From Pseudomonadota bacterium (GTDB lineage: Bacteria; Pseudomonadota; Gammaproteobacteria; Burkholderiales; Ferrovaceae): a DNA stretch of 64,000 nt. This document shows positions 14,536-21,587 of the stretch, in pieces. Numbering within the stretch: position 1 is the first letter of the stretch; the number at the start of each line of letters is the position of its first letter. The stretch covers positions 1 through 64,000 of the forward strand of contig JAKABO010000008.1 in NCBI GenBank assembly GCA_021796835.1, in the 5' to 3' direction. A program made the position numbers and the translations under genes. The notes beneath the pieces are model-generated. The model had not been told where the DNA came from. It made no database searches and was given only the letters and a program-made list of their open reading frames with translations.

Positions 14536-14646
14536 CTTCGTGTCACCCATTCAGATGCCGTAAGGATGAGCGCCGGGTAGACATTCAACAGACCCTTTGT
14601 TTTTGAGCAGGATACGCGTTCGGCCCTGATTCTCGAAACTCGCTTG

Positions 14647-14673
14647 ACCGGTAGAGAAGATGCCGGTTTTTTT
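14647..14673 (+). terminator. Rho-independent terminator-like hairpin
   Basis: ACCGG (14647-14651) pairs with CCGGT (14663-14667) across 11 nt and is followed by a run of T. The stem is short. It lies 112 nt after the Spy-like gene. Confidence 0.45.
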
Positions 14674-14849
14674 ATCGAAAGAATTTTTATAGAATTAAAA
14701 AATGGATATATTGTGTTGATTTTTGTAAAAAACATAAGATCACCCCTAATTCCGTTCGTGAAACGACAGGTCGGGGAAATAACTCGCCGTTGGCATATCG
14801 GTGTACTTTCTCTGAACATTGTCATATCCATCGATCACTGATCTTTGTT

Positions 14850-15272
14850 ATGGCTACCAATGGCTTGTTGCGGCACCAGATGATCGAAAATCTCATGGCC
14901 CGGCACACGGAAGGAGTTGTGGATGGCGCAATTGTCTTGTGGGAGCAGTTGGCAACTCACATTATTTCGATCATCGGTGAAAGTGGTTTCAATTCTCTTT
15001 ACGCAAGAAGTGTGTTCCTTGCCCAGTCAACCTTTCCCTGGCTCGTCGCCACTTCAATCTCACCGCAGACTGATCACAGATTTGCGGGATTAAGAATTTC
15101 TTTTGACGGGCAAACGCGCATGCAAACCAGAGAGGCGAACAGATTGCTACTGATCATTTTTACCGACATCCTGGCATCGCTAATCGGCGAGCAATTGACG
15201 ACCCAAATGGTACGATTGGCCTGGGGCAATAATATCCAAGATAGATCCGGCAAGGAGTTTTCAGATGAGTAA
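14850..15272 (+). CDS. Uncharacterised 140-aa protein coupled to a KaiC-like ATPase
   Basis: The product is soluble and mostly helical, with a conserved-looking core: IIGESGFNSLYARS, TFPWLVATSI, a stretch around RLLLIIFTDILASLIGEQL, and TTQMVRLAW. Proteins with this pattern occur beside KaiC-domain genes, but no function is known to me. The frame overlaps the KaiC-like gene by eight nt, so the two are translationally coupled. The start is uncertain: ATG at 14850 or 14880, neither with a good ribosome binding site. The upstream 314 nt (14536-14849) hold a terminator and AT-rich sequence, probably the operon promoter. A partner or regulator of the ATPase is a reasonable guess. Confidence 0.6.
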   Translation: MATNGLLRHQMIENLMARHTEGVVDGAIVLWEQLATHIISIIGESGFNSLYARSVFLAQSTFPWLVATSISPQTDHRFAGLRISFDGQTRMQTREANRLLLIIFTDILASLIGEQLTTQMVRLAWGNNIQDRSGKEFSDE

Positions 15273-16731
15273 GAAGGTTACCATACGCCGTCTGCCGACG
15301 GGCGTTCCTGGTTTGGACAACCTTCTGGGCGGTGGATTGCCGGAATTCTCGTTCAACCTGATTGCGGGTATGCCGGGAAGCGGAAAAACGACACTCGCCC
15401 ACCAGATCATGTTCTCACAGGCAAACTCGGACAATCGGGTACTGTTCTTCACGGTACTTGGCGAGCCTGCCTTGAAGATGCTCAGGTATCAGCAGCAGTT
15501 TTCGTTTTTTGACATTGATAAAATCAATGATTCGATACGCTTCGTCAATCTGTCTGCTGACCTCATGGGAGGGAATTTCGACCGTGTATTGTCGCGCATC
15601 TCCGAAGAGGTGAAAAACTATACACCCAGTTTGGTATTTGTCGATTCCTTCCGATCGGTCGTGCAATCGACGAAGAATCAGGATACAGGTATGTCCGATT
15701 TGCAAAGATTCGTGCAGCAGTTGGGCATGCAAATGACAAGTTGGCAGACAACCTCGTTTTTATTGGGTGAATATTTGGCGCCGGAAGCAGAGTCCAGCCC
15801 TATTTTTACCGTGGCCGACGGCATCCTCTGGCTTTCGCAAAACATGCACCATAATTCAATGGTACGCAAGATGCAAGTGGTTAAAATGCGCGGTCAAGCT
15901 CAGGCTGCCGGTTTACATACCTTCCGTATCAGCGATGAAGGCATCCAGGTTTTTCCTCGCGCGATGGTCAAACCGAGCGGAGTGGTTGCGCCTTCTATCG
16001 AAGTTTCCGGCGGAGAGCACCGTATTCCTACGGGAGTACCGGGGCTGGATGAGATGATGGGCGGCGGCTTGCCCGCTGGCTATTCTCTGCTCCTGGTCGG
16101 ACCATCCGGTTCCGGGAAAACCGTATTAGCCACAGAATTTCTTGCTGAAGGGGCAGCCAGGGGGGAACCTGGTGTGATTGCAGCGTTTGAAAAGAGTCCG
16201 AACCAACTGCTGAGCAGAAAACTCAATACACTGATTCAGGCTGGGCAGGTTGGGGTGATCGACACGCGTTCTCTGGATTTATCGATTGATCAAATTCTGC
16301 ATGATCTGATCGAAATGATTACCAAAATGCAGGCAAAACGTGTTGTCATCGACTCCCTTTCCGGATTTGAACTGGCACTGGCACCCGAGTTTCATGAGGA
16401 TTTCCGGGGATCTCTGTACCGGATGATTGCCGAGTTGACCGGCATGGGCGTGACCATATTGATGACCTCGGAACTGGAAGACCGCTACACCGATTTGCGT
16501 TTCAGTCCCTTCGGGAGCGCTTTTCTCGCTGATGCAATCATCGTGCAGCGTTATGTTGAAATCGCGGGCCAATTCAAACGCGTCATCTCGGTCGTCAAAG
16601 TCCGTGGCAGCAGGCATAGCAAGGACATTCGGTTATACGATATTACAGATGAAGGCATCGTACTGGGGGAAACTTTGACTGCGTACGCTGGAATCCTGAC
16701 TGGCCGGCCGACTGGAGATCTCGTGGTATAG
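15265..16731 (+). CDS. Double KaiC-domain ATPase
   Basis: The 488-aa protein is two KaiC/RecA-like domains in tandem. Each begins with the family signature PTGVPGLD followed by LLGGGLP or MMGGGLP. The Walker A motifs are GMPGSGKTT (35-43) and GPSGSGKTV (about 279-287). It has the same architecture and nearly the length (519) of cyanobacterial KaiC, a hexameric autokinase-ATPase clock protein. The neighbours are not KaiA/KaiB. By hand alignment the two adjacent phospho-sites of KaiC (Ser431, Thr432) fall on Ala-Phe here, and the catalytic Glu pair of the second domain reads Glu-Lys (AFEKSP). An autokinase clock is thus unlikely; a signalling ATPase is more probable. AGGAG precedes the ATG. Confidence 0.85.
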   Translation: MSKKVTIRRLPTGVPGLDNLLGGGLPEFSFNLIAGMPGSGKTTLAHQIMFSQANSDNRVLFFTVLGEPALKMLRYQQQFSFFDIDKINDSIRFVNLSADLMGGNFDRVLSRISEEVKNYTPSLVFVDSFRSVVQSTKNQDTGMSDLQRFVQQLGMQMTSWQTTSFLLGEYLAPEAESSPIFTVADGILWLSQNMHHNSMVRKMQVVKMRGQAQAAGLHTFRISDEGIQVFPRAMVKPSGVVAPSIEVSGGEHRIPTGVPGLDEMMGGGLPAGYSLLLVGPSGSGKTVLATEFLAEGAARGEPGVIAAFEKSPNQLLSRKLNTLIQAGQVGVIDTRSLDLSIDQILHDLIEMITKMQAKRVVIDSLSGFELALAPEFHEDFRGSLYRMIAELTGMGVTILMTSELEDRYTDLRFSPFGSAFLADAIIVQRYVEIAGQFKRVISVVKVRGSRHSKDIRLYDITDEGIVLGETLTAYAGILTGRPTGDLVV

Positions 16732-16750
16732 GGAAGAAAGGGACATCGTA

Positions 16751-18436
16751 ATGAGTAAAAATGACAAAGGTCAAATTTCCGACCCCGGTGATTCGGTCTC
16801 TTCGGGCACGAATTCTGAGAGTGAAAGACAGTTCACTGTCCGCGGAAACGACAGAAGGCGAGGGGGAAGCATTGTCATTCACCCTCCCCCCCAAATCGAC
16901 CTTCTGCACCCCGAAGATTCGATCAGTGCGCGAGAAGATGCCGTGCGGTTGCGGGAACAGGATGTCAACCTGCTCGAGCAGGAAATTATTACTGCAGAGA
17001 CCACGCAGAAAACTTCCGACCCTCACCTGAAGGTATTGCAACAAGCGAACGCAAATCTGGTAATTGCTACCATCGAAGCGCATAAACTGGCCGAACAAAT
17101 CCAGATGTCTAAAACGCATCTGGATCATTTAGCCCATCACGATGGACTCACCGATTTGCCCAACCGAATGCTGCTGCATGACCGGCTTGGTCAGGCAATC
17201 GAGTCGGCTCGTCGTCGAGGCAGGAAACTTGCGTTGTTGTTCATGGATGTGGATCGATTCAAAAATATCAACGACTCTCTGGGGCATGTGATTGGAGATC
17301 AACTGCTGCAATCGGTGGCGAAACGCCTGGTTGAGTGCGTGCGTCATTCAGACTCCGTCTGCCGCCAAGGGGGGGACGAGTTCATTATACTGCTGGCCGA
17401 AATCGAGCACGCAGAAGACGCAGCGCTTTCTGCACAGAAGGTGCTTACAGCGCTCGCGATTCCTCATCGCATCGACCAGCACGACCTCTATATCAGCGTG
17501 AGCATCGGTATCTGCATCTACCCCGACGATGGTTCGGATGCAACTTCCCTGATCAAGGGTGCGGATATGGCGATGTATCATACCAAGGGAAACGGGGGTA
17601 ACGACTATACATTCTTCGAGCAGAGCATGAATACCCAGGCCGTCAAGAAGCTCTCCACTGAAACCGATCTGCAACTCGCACTGCAACGGCAGGAATTCGT
17701 GCTGTACTACCAGCCGAAAATAAATCTTCAGAGTGGCGAAATTGTCGGGGTAGAGGCGCTCATCCGCTGGCGTCATCCACGGCATGGACTGATCCTGCCC
17801 GGGCAGTTTATCCAGATCGCCGAAGACTGTGGCCTCATTGTGCCCATCGGCGCGTGGGTTTTGCGGGAAGCTTGCAAACAAGCCAAAGCCTGGCAAGATT
17901 CTGGTTTTCCTCCCCTCCCGGTGGCGGTCAACATCTCTGCCGCACAGTTCAGACGTAAGGATTTTCTGGAAAGCCTGGCGGGGATCCTGAAAGACACCGG
18001 CCTGGCAGCGCGCTATCTCGAACTTGAGTTGACCGAAAGCGTGCTCATGCAGGATGCAAATGTTACCGTCTCCATGCTCGAGGCGCTCAAAGCCATGGGC
18101 GCTCAACTTGCCATTGACGACTTTGGTACGGGTTTTTCGAGTTTGAGTTATTTGAAACGTTTTCCGATTGACACGCTGAAGATCGACCAGTCGTTTATGC
18201 ATGACATCACGAAGGCTATGGACAATCTGGATGATGCTGCCCTCGTGACCGCCGTGATCGGCCTGGGAAAAAGCCTCAATTTGTGCGTCATTGCCGAAGG
18301 TGTGGAAACGCATGAACAGTTGGTATTCCTGCAGAACCAGGGGTGTAGCGAAGGACAGGGGTTTTATTTCAGTCAGCCAGTATCTGAGAAAAAAATGACT
18401 ATGTTGCTTCGAACGGATCGCACGATACCTTTTTGA
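16751..18436 (+). CDS. GGDEF-EAL protein (cyclic di-GMP synthase/phosphodiesterase)
   Basis: The 561-aa product starts with a polar, low-complexity region and a coiled coil (about 55-120, RLREQDVNLLEQEIITAE). A GGDEF domain (GGDEF intact near 206) and an EAL domain (EALIRW near 335) follow. Both signature motifs are complete, so either activity is possible; the net effect cannot be told from sequence. There is no membrane helix or PAS domain. It follows the KaiC-like gene by 19 nt with a GGGA ribosome binding site, so the KaiC-like ATPase and c-di-GMP turnover are probably expressed together. The coiled coil may be the coupling surface. Confidence 0.88.
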   Translation: MSKNDKGQISDPGDSVSSGTNSESERQFTVRGNDRRRGGSIVIHPPPQIDLLHPEDSISAREDAVRLREQDVNLLEQEIITAETTQKTSDPHLKVLQQANANLVIATIEAHKLAEQIQMSKTHLDHLAHHDGLTDLPNRMLLHDRLGQAIESARRRGRKLALLFMDVDRFKNINDSLGHVIGDQLLQSVAKRLVECVRHSDSVCRQGGDEFIILLAEIEHAEDAALSAQKVLTALAIPHRIDQHDLYISVSIGICIYPDDGSDATSLIKGADMAMYHTKGNGGNDYTFFEQSMNTQAVKKLSTETDLQLALQRQEFVLYYQPKINLQSGEIVGVEALIRWRHPRHGLILPGQFIQIAEDCGLIVPIGAWVLREACKQAKAWQDSGFPPLPVAVNISAAQFRRKDFLESLAGILKDTGLAARYLELELTESVLMQDANVTVSMLEALKAMGAQLAIDDFGTGFSSLSYLKRFPIDTLKIDQSFMHDITKAMDNLDDAALVTAVIGLGKSLNLCVIAEGVETHEQLVFLQNQGCSEGQGFYFSQPVSEKKMTMLLRTDRTIPF

Positions 18437-18479
18437 TTTTGTATCACAAATCGCTGTCCGAATCGATGGTCAGAATTCA

Positions 18480-21400
18480 TCAGCGATGAGATAGCCATGT
18501 ATCAAATTGATTTGCGGGAAGAGGCTGGCTGAAATAAAACCCCTGACCCTCGTCACATCCCTGTTCACGCAGGAAAACCAGTTGCTCCCGCGTCTCCACG
18601 CCTTCGGCGATGGTTTTCAGGCCCAGGCTCTTGGCCATGCTGATGATGGCCGCAATGATGGCCCGATCTTCCTCAGCCGTGCTGATGTTCTGCACAAAGG
18701 ACTGGTCGATCTTGAGTTTGTACACGTTGAACTTTTTCAAGTAATTCAGTGAGGAGTAGCCCGTACCAAAATCATCGATGGACAAGCGGATCCCCTGTTT
18801 GGACAAACCGGCCATGATGGCAATGGCACTCTGGGGATCATGCATGGCTACACTCTCGGTCAGTTCCAACTCAAACAGGTGGGAGGGAACCGAAGCCTCC
18901 TGCAAAAGCCGTGAGATCAAATCGGATAGGCTGGAAAATAGAAACTGGACTGCCGACAGGTTGACAGCCATGATGACGGGGAGGGCGCCATGGTCCAGCC
19001 ATTGTTTGAGTTGCTGGATCGCCTTGCGAATCACCCATTCGCCGATGGGAATGATCAAACCGGTGTCCTCGGCAACGGGAATGAACTCTGCCGGCGATAT
19101 TTGACCCAGTTCAGGATGATTCCAGCGCAACAGTGCCTCTGCGCCGATGATCCGGTTGTTGACCAGTGAAATCTGCGGTTGATAATACAGGTCGAATTGG
19201 TCGCATTCCAACGCGTGGCGTAAGGCATTCACCAATTGCATGTTGCGTGTCGTGCGGGCCTGCATTTCGGGCGTAAAGAAGCGGTAACCGTTCCGTCCTT
19301 CATTCTTGGCGCGATACATGGCCGTATCGGCGCTTTTGGACAGCGTTTCCAGGTTGATGCCATCGCCAGGATAAACCGCAATGCCGATGGAAACCGTCAC
19401 GGAGAGTTCATACTGCTCGATCTGATACGGCGCAGCCACGATATCCAATATCTTTTGTGCCACCTGTGCGGCCCCTTGCGCATCACTGCCCGGGAGCATG
19501 ACGATGAATTCATCACCGCCCAACCGCGAAATGGTATCCTCTTCCCTCAACAGGCTTTGCAGGCGCCTGGCGACCATGACCAACAGGGCATCCCCAGTGC
19601 CGTGCCCCAATGAGTCATTGATTTCCTTGAAACGATCGAGATCGAGAAACATCAACGCCAGGTGACCATTGCTGCGCTTGGCCAGACTCAGGGCATAGCG
19701 GAGGTGTTCATCCAGTTGTGCACGATTTGGCAAACCGGTCAACACATCATAGTTGGCCAGGTATTGAATCCGTGCCTCATTGCGACGACGTTCGGTGATG
19801 TCCCGGGTAATCCCCAACAAGGCGGTAATATCACCTTTGGCATCTCTCAGTGGGGCCGCGTGGGTTTCCACTTGCCGCCGCGTGCCCTTCAATCCGACGA
19901 TCTCAAATTCCGCAATGGCATTTTGCCCCTGCATCACCTGTCGGCGCAGAGTTTCAAGGTTTTCATGAAATTCTGGCGGAATGAAATCCAGAAGGGAATT
20001 CTGTCTGGCTTCCTCGAGGGAAGAGACCTCCAACAATTTCAAACCAATGGCGTTGATGTCCATCAACTCTCCCTGAAGACCGATGACTTCGATACATTCT
20101 GGTTCGGTCTCGATGATGGTTCTCAGTCGTTGCTCACTTTCCCGCAAGTCCTCTTCCGCACGTTGACGCCGGGTTTCACGGTCAAAACTGGTCAGGGCAT
20201 AGTCTATGTCCAGTGCCATTTCGAGAAGGAGTGCCTGGATACTCTCATCAAAAGCGTGAGCGGTACCGGCATACAAGGCAAAGGTTCCAATGGGTTGGCC
20301 ATTACAGTGCAGGGGAATTGCGGCACAGGCTGCCAAACCATACTGGGTAGCGGTTTCCTGCCAGGGAACGGTCATGGGATCCCGTTTGAAATTCTGGCAC
20401 CAGACCGCGCGATTTTCCCGCAGAGCCGTACCCACGGGCCCACGCCCCGCGGGTTTGTCTGCTTCCACGGAGATGTTGAGCGTTTCCAGATAGTCCTGTC
20501 CGGCACCAAAAGACGCAACCGGGACGATCCGTTTCGTTGCATCATTCAGTATGCCGATCCAGGCCATTTTCAAGCCACCGAAATTGACGACATCACGGCA
20601 TACTTGCGGGAAGAGTTCGGCCTCACAGGTGCAACGCACGATGGCCTGATTGCATTGACTGAGTGCTGCGTAGAGTTGTGTGAGACGCTGTAATTTTACC
20701 TCTGCAGACTTGCGTTCGCTGATATCCCGCACCGTGGCCTGGATCAGACCATTGGGCCCAGGATTCATGCGGGTCAGCAGGACATCCGCAAAAAACTCGG
20801 TTCCATCGGTTCGCTTATGCATCCATTCAAAAAAATGCGTCCCCTTGTCGAGCGCCAGTTCCATCATTTCTCGCGCTTTTTCATACGAACCGCGACCATC
20901 CGGCTGAAATTCCGGGGAAGCGTCAGCGGGGGAGAGTGAAATGAATTCCGCTTCATCCGCGCACCTGAACAATGCGATGGCGGCTGGATTTCCACTGAGA
21001 AAGCCTTTGTCGATGTTCAGGGTCATGATGGCATCCCGTGAGGATTCAAACAGCCGCCGGAAGGCGGCTTCGCTCTCCCGCAGGGCTTCTTCCTCGTGCT
21101 CACGACTGATGGCGATGGATGCAATATGGGTGACGGTGTCCATCAGACGGAGGTGTTCATGGGTTGGAAGTTCTGGTTTGGCGTTATACAGGGCCAGGGT
21201 GCCCAGCACGCGTTTTTTTGCATCGATGATGGGGGTGGACCAATAGGCGTGAACTCCCTTTTTCAACGCAATATTTCTGTGGCCTTCCCAAGAGGGATCG
21301 ACGGCGATGTTTTCGACGAAGACCGGTTCCCCGGGAAGGATCTCGGTGTCGCATGAACCTGTCTGTGAACGGCTGGACTGTCCGTCCATGGCGGTGATCA

Positions 21401-21587
21401 GCGGAGAGGGCAGGGGGAAGGACGCACCATGGTAGACCTGTACCCCTTCCTGATCGAGCAATAAAATGGATCCTCGCACCCCCGGAGCCCGGGATTCGAG
21501 AAACTCAATCAAGGCGCACAAGGATTCCGACAAGGGAGCCCCCGTGGCCACCATTTCCAAAATTCTTTCGGTTTCATTGGGCAGCAT
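18480..21587 (-). CDS. GAF-PAS-GAF-PAS-GGDEF-EAL signalling protein
   Basis: The 1035-aa protein has, in order, a GAF domain (about 10-165), a PAS domain (about 168-290), a second GAF (about 310-460) and a second PAS with PAC (about 475-600). A GGDEF domain (RLGGDEF near 686) and an EAL domain (AEALLRW near 815) complete it. Both catalytic signatures are intact. No membrane segment is present, so it is a cytoplasmic sensor that sets cyclic di-GMP levels in response to ligands bound by GAF/PAS. It converges on the other GGDEF-EAL gene with 43 nt between stop codons and may serve the same process. Confidence 0.9.
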   Translation of the reverse strand: MLPNETERILEMVATGAPLSESLCALIEFLESRAPGVRGSILLLDQEGVQVYHGASFPLPSPLITAMDGQSSRSQTGSCDTEILPGEPVFVENIAVDPSWEGHRNIALKKGVHAYWSTPIIDAKKRVLGTLALYNAKPELPTHEHLRLMDTVTHIASIAISREHEEEALRESEAAFRRLFESSRDAIMTLNIDKGFLSGNPAAIALFRCADEAEFISLSPADASPEFQPDGRGSYEKAREMMELALDKGTHFFEWMHKRTDGTEFFADVLLTRMNPGPNGLIQATVRDISERKSAEVKLQRLTQLYAALSQCNQAIVRCTCEAELFPQVCRDVVNFGGLKMAWIGILNDATKRIVPVASFGAGQDYLETLNISVEADKPAGRGPVGTALRENRAVWCQNFKRDPMTVPWQETATQYGLAACAAIPLHCNGQPIGTFALYAGTAHAFDESIQALLLEMALDIDYALTSFDRETRRQRAEEDLRESEQRLRTIIETEPECIEVIGLQGELMDINAIGLKLLEVSSLEEARQNSLLDFIPPEFHENLETLRRQVMQGQNAIAEFEIVGLKGTRRQVETHAAPLRDAKGDITALLGITRDITERRRNEARIQYLANYDVLTGLPNRAQLDEHLRYALSLAKRSNGHLALMFLDLDRFKEINDSLGHGTGDALLVMVARRLQSLLREEDTISRLGGDEFIVMLPGSDAQGAAQVAQKILDIVAAPYQIEQYELSVTVSIGIAVYPGDGINLETLSKSADTAMYRAKNEGRNGYRFFTPEMQARTTRNMQLVNALRHALECDQFDLYYQPQISLVNNRIIGAEALLRWNHPELGQISPAEFIPVAEDTGLIIPIGEWVIRKAIQQLKQWLDHGALPVIMAVNLSAVQFLFSSLSDLISRLLQEASVPSHLFELELTESVAMHDPQSAIAIMAGLSKQGIRLSIDDFGTGYSSLNYLKKFNVYKLKIDQSFVQNISTAEEDRAIIAAIISMAKSLGLKTIAEGVETREQLVFLREQGCDEGQGFYFSQPLPANQFDTWLSHR

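Follow-up and report, generated by a model that had tools for sequence, protein, structure and literature searches.

A two-domain KaiC homologue of a Ferrovaceae bacterium (Gammaproteobacteria, Burkholderiales; assembly GCA_021796835.1, contig JAKABO010000008.1, positions 1 to 64,000) is encoded between the gene of a small uncharacterised protein and that of a GGDEF-EAL protein. Comparison of this trio with related loci in other genomes suggests a mobile switch with swappable outputs and not a clock. In the reading we favour, to which we give slightly better than an even chance, KaiC is an ATP-dependent switch with a small partner in place of KaiA and KaiB, its output proteins dock via a shared helix, and the module moves horizontally. 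The three genes lie in the analysed stretch of 64,000 nucleotides (nt), called the window throughout, as follows:

14850–15272, plus strand: small-protein gene; 140 amino acids, all-helical, of an undescribed family that is a near-obligate neighbour of this KaiC clade
15265–16731, plus strand: two-domain KaiC homologue; 488 amino acids, PF06745 twice, start codon inside the 3' end of the small gene
16751–18436, plus strand: GGDEF-EAL protein (output gene); 561 amino acids

A preliminary description of this locus, made from the sequence, had placed the trio in one operon, and the coordinates of the open reading frames (ORFs) agree with such an arrangement: the small gene and kaiC overlap by 8 nt (15265–15272, ATGAGTAA), and kaiC and the GGDEF-EAL gene are 19 nt apart (16732–16750). 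The ORF that ends at 15272 begins with a TTG at 14790 (160 amino acids), and the ATG at 14850 (140 amino acids) is the start backed by the family alignment. KaiA (PF07688) and KaiB (PF07689), described as absent, indeed gave no match in the window's genome, whose stated completeness is 99.5%; both controls were positive in Synechococcus elongatus.

Association of the small gene with a KaiC clade

The genomic neighbourhood was surveyed with the window's KaiC as the query and one genome per species, and the best 80 of 103 relatives were kept as named loci. Because it was seeded with the window's KaiC, the survey is tilted to close relatives; some record titles, namely metagenome-assembled genomes labelled Rhizobium, Afipia, and Marinobacter, are possibly misbinned. 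The small gene lies directly upstream of kaiC and on the same strand in 79 of the 80 loci (78 by single-sequence search, and L118 via inspection and profile), so its position beside KaiC is not due to chance. Of these loci, only L099 lacks it. The gene is broken or short in three loci (L049, L050, and L052) and cut by the contig end in a fourth (L054). A start codon allowing an overlap with kaiC is present in 57 of 78 rows, with 8 nt in 36 and 4 nt in 21; this count leaves out L099 and also L112, which does carry the small gene. The preliminary description would have been contradicted if its three genes were not neighbours in other genomes. The survey found the opposite: nearly all kaiC genes of the clade are paired with the small gene, and a GGDEF-EAL gene follows at up to about 2.5 kb downstream in part of the loci (29/80, with L115, whose KaiC frame is broken, taken as adjacent).

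An independent test, in which KaiC and the small family were searched separately in 399 genomes of the order, gave the same picture. KaiC (E ≤ 1e-60) and the small family each occur in 25 genomes, and 23 have both. KaiC proteins of the clade are present in 23 genomes, all of which possess the small family (Fisher 2e-35, with relatedness ignored), and each of the 24 copies has the small gene beside it, at a distance of at most 104 nt by match edges. The two genomes with KaiC only (G148 and G280) encode a KaiC of another kind (32–33% identical); those with the small family only are G057, where the gene lies at a contig end, and G410, from which KaiC is absent. At the level of the phylum, the small family was detected in 4 of 398 genomes. 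Relatives extend to records named Myxococcota and Gemmatimonadota (L080, L117, and L118) and to an alphaproteobacterial plasmid.

The members of the small family have about 140 residues, of which G43, R53, and G113 are invariant in an alignment of 59 rows from the window and other genomes. The view that the 140-residue protein is uncharacterised holds: the family has no consistent match in Pfam or NCBIfam (scattered matches in one or two of the 59 members, the best at 0.001), and a profile search of the PDB returned no relative of the protein. Its AlphaFold2 model comprises six helices (predicted local distance difference test, pLDDT, 83; predicted template modelling score 0.78). Foldseek returned no match to this model at E ≤ 0.001, and the best VIA-align Z score of 5.2 is within the range of common helical bundles and therefore carries little information for a protein of this kind; weak matches to globins also appeared in the fold search. 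Residues ~21–50 and ~91–120 form similar helix-Gly-helix segments (hhalign P 4e-4, probability 35%; reversed control 0.28), which is only suggestive of a possible internal duplication in the family.

In one genome (G188; L136, 2183–5052), transposon ORFs, which we take to be IS66-like, lie within the small gene, with an intact KaiC downstream, and a second copy of the element follows about 6 kb on.

Exchangeable outputs behind a shared helix

The third gene of the module is interchangeable. When only the first output gene at a distance of up to 400 nt was counted and six contig-edge loci were set aside, 74 loci could be classified: 29 have a histidine kinase, 17 a GGDEF-EAL protein (including L115), eight a GGDEF-kinase fusion, and three a GGDEF protein in which no second domain was found; 17 have no output gene. 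A GGDEF-EAL gene also stands behind a leading kinase in 12 loci, and the order is reversed in L058. Mapped on the KaiC tree, these five labels require at least 19 changes, compared with a mean of 39 after shuffling, and the strongly supported branches of this quick tree, which has many weak ones, alone force at least five changes for the kinase label.

The following features were located in the output protein of the window:

17018–17122, plus strand: linker helix, DPHLKVLQQANANLVIATIEAHKLAEQIQMSKTHLD, found by motif patterns and profile
17132–17602, plus strand: GGDEF domain, assigned by Pfam
17666–18379, plus strand: EAL domain, assigned by Pfam

Both domains have strong Pfam matches (GGDEF 3e-52, EAL 7e-74), and the protein aligns along both with solved tandem enzymes (best PDB entry 5m3c, 1.5e-129), with both catalytic motifs kept. 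Its domains and motifs make it a predicted enzyme of cyclic diguanosine monophosphate (c-di-GMP) turnover. Residues 1–127 match no Pfam family and hence no KaiB-like (thioredoxin-type) SasA domain; this region contains the helical linker instead. A model of residues 1–290 folded without an alignment was not usable (pLDDT 40).

A segment like LQQANAxLVIATIEAxKLAEQV, often preceded by REdAvxL-type repeats, stands ahead of the catalytic part in nearly every output protein, be it a kinase or a GGDEF-EAL protein. Strict and relaxed patterns together recover it in 70 of the 73 output genes within 2.5 kb (68 by the relaxed pattern; L062 and L074 by the strict pattern alone). It was not found in L061, which has a broken frame, or in L089 and L092, which are about 1 kb away. 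In 13 operons with both enzyme types, the N-termini of kinase and GGDEF-EAL protein are 57% identical within the operon vs 44% between operons; kinases compared with one another reach 43%, GGDEF-EAL proteins 52%, and shuffled sequence 24%. A common origin in the same genome may be behind part of the value within operons.

The helix is also largely specific to the module. A profile of 45 rows and 35 positions matched 25 places in 22 of the 399 genomes of the order, and 20 of these 22 genomes carry the small family. Twenty of the 25 places are within 3 kb of KaiC, and four others fit the module: the contig in G003 ends with the last KaiC codons, contigs C33 of G194 and C55 of G172 start within the operon or with its output gene, and the place in G410 directly follows the small gene. 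The single clear orphan is part of a PAS-GGDEF-EAL protein in G200. The window's genome (2.15 Mb) has one linker match against 23 GGDEF matches, and a search of 319 genomes of the phylum yielded three linker matches.

These results modify the earlier proposal of a signalling module in which the ATPase gates c-di-GMP turnover through the coiled coil of the GGDEF-EAL protein. The conserved module stands, and the helical N-terminal region is indeed its specific part; the restriction to c-di-GMP falls, as histidine kinases are the commoner output. Because c-di-GMP is just one of several outputs, the module cannot be called a gate for c-di-GMP in particular.

A more distant arrangement is found on a plasmid of Paracoccus liaowanqingii (L147, 4047–7165), which encodes a small protein of divergent sequence (profile match at 1.5e-14), KaiC, an HWE kinase, and a response regulator; the N-terminal segment of the kinase resembles a diverged linker.

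Horizontal movement of the module

The module moves horizontally. KaiC proteins that are 80–84% identical to that of the window were found in other families and gammaproteobacterial records, and carriage on plasmids was observed in Caballeronia and Paracoccus and, for the small gene only, in Polaromonas. None of seven genomes of the same genus was matched in the search for the small gene. In one of these relatives (G003, contig C35; L137, 1024–1657), the genes flanking the module are 633 nt apart vs 3.9 kb in the window (14554–18475); the module is absent, and the spacer holds other small ORFs. The same genome has kept a linker GGDEF-EAL gene on contig C46 (L129), which ends at KaiC. Contigs C46 and C20 (L138, 8.4 kb) end at the same KaiC 3' end, one of them also at the start of the small gene, and the ORFs of C20 are presumably replication-initiator-like, resolvase-like, and toxin-antitoxin-like. 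These contig ends suggest a plasmid copy and a collapsed repeat of the small gene and KaiC; probably, this core was collapsed and lost in the assembly of G003. According to the accessible text of a study of Ferrovum, a presumed relative of the window's bacterium, the majority of short variants there affect mobile-element proteins and KaiC (PMC8899612), a pattern that would fit a KaiC present in multiple copies.

The module-free site in G003, the lack of matches in the seven congeneric genomes, and the plasmid copies would also be expected of a mobile cluster of cargo genes that move as a group but have no functional tie. Such an explanation is highly improbable, because the order of the small gene and KaiC is kept in records of Pseudomonadota, Myxococcota, and Gemmatimonadota, and an N-terminal helix common to two enzyme families is unexpected under hitch-hiking.

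Several features surround the module. A stretch of 93 nt upstream of it (14577–14670) recurs on contig C127 of G003 (93%) and on contig C36 of the window's own genome (80%). On the minus strand, a gene for a GAF-PAS-GGDEF-EAL protein of 1035 amino acids (18480–21587) converges on the module. A Crp-like regulator was considered as a fourth part and rejected, since it is near the module in just 14 of the 80 loci and not in the window; in seven of these 14 loci, the gene precedes the module by a few hundred nt and has the same orientation. Membership in a known anti-phage defence system was likewise rejected: PADLOC gave generic ATPase matches for KaiC alone and none for the other two proteins.

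KaiC residues, proposed mechanism, and known systems

The assignment of the second protein to the KaiC family is clear, with two stretches of the KaiC domain (PF06745; 1e-75, 254 bits vs a Pfam cut-off of 26.6). Its informative residues were read from an alignment of the surveyed homologues, with L115 left out of the column counts owing to its short frame:

15367–15393, plus strand: CI Walker A motif GMPGSGKTT, residues 35–43; G35, P37, G38, G40, K41, T42, and T43 in 79/79 readable rows
15451–15468, plus strand: TVLGEP, residues 63–68, at the place of the CI catalytic glutamates; L65 in 78/79, G66 and E67 in 79/79 readable rows
16099–16122, plus strand: CII Walker A motif GPSGSGKT, residues 279–286, from the KaiC alignment columns
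16189–16191, plus strand: E309, the CII catalytic glutamate, kept in 80/80 rows
16516–16521, plus strand: S418-A419 at the place of the S431/T432 phosphosites, from the alignment to solved KaiC; Ser or Thr in 61/80 and Ala in 78/80 rows

The glutamate pair of CI in circadian KaiC, whose catalytic role is described in the available text of PMC5520375, is replaced by Leu/Ile-Gly in all 79 readable rows, with a Glu one place later; solved KaiC sequences carry FEE at this site. The second Glu of CII is kept in just two of 80 rows. Both Walker A motifs are intact. With E309 kept, the CI pair lost, and Ala at the T432 place, CII seems capable of ATP hydrolysis and CI looks changed, whereas a two-site phosphorylation cycle looks impossible.

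These losses bear on the alternative that KaiC is a timer, circadian or hourglass, that drives a daily rhythm of c-di-GMP or kinase activity. Its homology to KaiC and the hourglass proposed for a KaiC of Ramlibacter that lacks KaiA and KaiB (PMC3164672, in the text available) speak for a timer, but four marks of a circadian KaiC are missing: the curated score (160 vs a cut-off of 546 bits for TIGR02655, and 246 vs 408 for NF006799), the glutamate pairs of CI and CII, the full pair of S431 and T432 sites, and kaiA and kaiB in the genome. The same source argues that, without phosphorylation of two residues, KaiC probably could not keep a cycle going. A clock was consequently rejected as the main account on the basis of the lost residues and the missing KaiA and KaiB, and a timer of any kind appears very improbable.

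In the ATP-dependent switch that we favour, translational coupling would link the synthesis of the small protein to that of KaiC, and the two would form the module's core. KaiC would probably assemble into a ring of two tiers, with ATP hydrolysed in CII and mainly bound in CI, and the small protein would probably bind the ring and set its state, a role that in cyanobacteria is filled by KaiA and KaiB. The output enzyme (here the GGDEF-EAL protein, elsewhere a histidine kinase or a GGDEF-kinase fusion) would dock by its LQQANAxLVIATIEAxKLAEQ helix, which would pass the state of KaiC into the catalytic domains and, in the window, alter c-di-GMP turnover. ATP as the input, the formation of a ring, and the direction of signalling are presumed from the KaiC family, and binding is presumed as well. 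Most simply, any helix-bearing protein would read the state of a core made up of KaiC and its small partner. A broader scenario, which we rate just short of an even chance, is that this clade of KaiC rings dropped the clock, gained one dedicated small regulator, and became a universal socket that controls any enzyme acquiring the helix, whether a kinase, a diguanylate cyclase/phosphodiesterase, or both, moving between classes and on plasmids and swapping outputs on the way.

Several observations weigh against the switch. The 17 of 74 loci without an adjoining output gene, mostly from one clade of Oxalobacteraceae, imply that the output is not essential or is located elsewhere. Five of the 25 genomes with the small family have no linker match, the linker resembles general signalling helices, and one of the three matches from the phylum is marginal (9e-4) and falls in an ordinary PAS-GGDEF-EAL protein of G481. 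The sequence does not show how active the changed CI site is as an ATPase; E67 may take over. The small protein could instead be a chaperone or something else. Finally, KaiC-free units exist: in G410 (L131, 1752–3955), a complete small gene directly precedes a linker kinase, and the whole genome gave no KaiC match at 1e-60; a second unit in G404 (L133, 6494–8051) combines a small gene shortened at its C-terminus with an overlapping linker-GGDEF gene.

Although pairs of the small gene and an output without KaiC are rare, they are present, and KaiC lacks the small gene only once in 80 loci. The small protein is thus the component most consistently present, and in an alternative account it, and not KaiC, touches the helix. 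The small protein would then be an adaptor or sensor that binds the linker directly, and KaiC would act on it and not on the output enzyme. The units in G410 and G404 and a second small copy in L094, which lies beside a reverse-strand kinase bearing the motif, are consistent with this arrangement. However, these are three cases in total, one of them truncated and another (G410) on a contig of only 5.9 kb, and the pairing of the small gene and KaiC without an adjoining output is far more common (17/74), so we regard a direct adaptor as unlikely.

The flow of information might also be reversed, with c-di-GMP or the state of a phosphorelay setting KaiC, which in turn acts on another target. The constancy of the small gene and KaiC among varying outputs, together with the loci that have no output gene, indicates that the core may have a job of its own. 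Nevertheless, in the proteins that vary, the catalytic domains are complete and follow the shared helix, where an effector usually stands, and a reversed flow seems rather improbable.

If the proposed switch is correct, it offers a testable partner of KaiC and a sequence tag that predicts KaiC-controlled enzymes, and the loci amount to a series of natural replacements of the output under a single input. KaiC as an ATP switch would be set apart from KaiC as a clock and be tied to control by c-di-GMP in bacteria that oxidise iron, sulfur, or methane. A literature search did not find the small partner, the shared helix, or the clade-wide change in CI, which is no proof of their absence; the accessible parts of PMC6627678, PMC10359499, and PMC13001216 contain nothing on a module of small gene, KaiC, and output. 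The last of these reports, as far as its accessible text goes, that c-di-GMP has no direct action on cyanobacterial KaiC in vitro.

The closest precedent in the available text of PMC3164672 dates from 2011, when proteobacterial kaiC genes without KaiA or KaiB were reported to adjoin genes for histidine kinases, receivers, or GGDEF/EAL proteins and co-transcription of KaiC and kinase was shown in Ramlibacter. The same work proposed a common N-terminal region of the kinases as a KaiC-docking module. Unlike the linker helix, this region (RtaNt) is KaiB/SasA-like and belongs to another group of KaiC with two phosphosites; no small upstream partner and no helix common to kinases and GGDEF-EAL proteins was found in the available text of that report.

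As in the cyanobacterial KaiABC-SasA clock, the state of the KaiC ATPase would be read by the next enzyme in the pathway. By contrast, the module of the window has no KaiA or KaiB, its CI site is changed, T432 is lost, and its output has no SasA-type domain. The archaeal KaiC-like ATPases, which the accessible text of PMC5847659 presents as signalling hubs, are similar in that varied partners are grouped in a signalling network around a central ATPase of the KaiC family, whereas the module described here is bacterial, with one fixed small partner and the output helix as its constant part. The GGDEF-EAL protein shares both catalytic domains and their motifs with the tandem enzymes 4rnh ("motility regulator") and 5m3c but differs from them in its N-terminus, which is the linker of the KaiC module instead.

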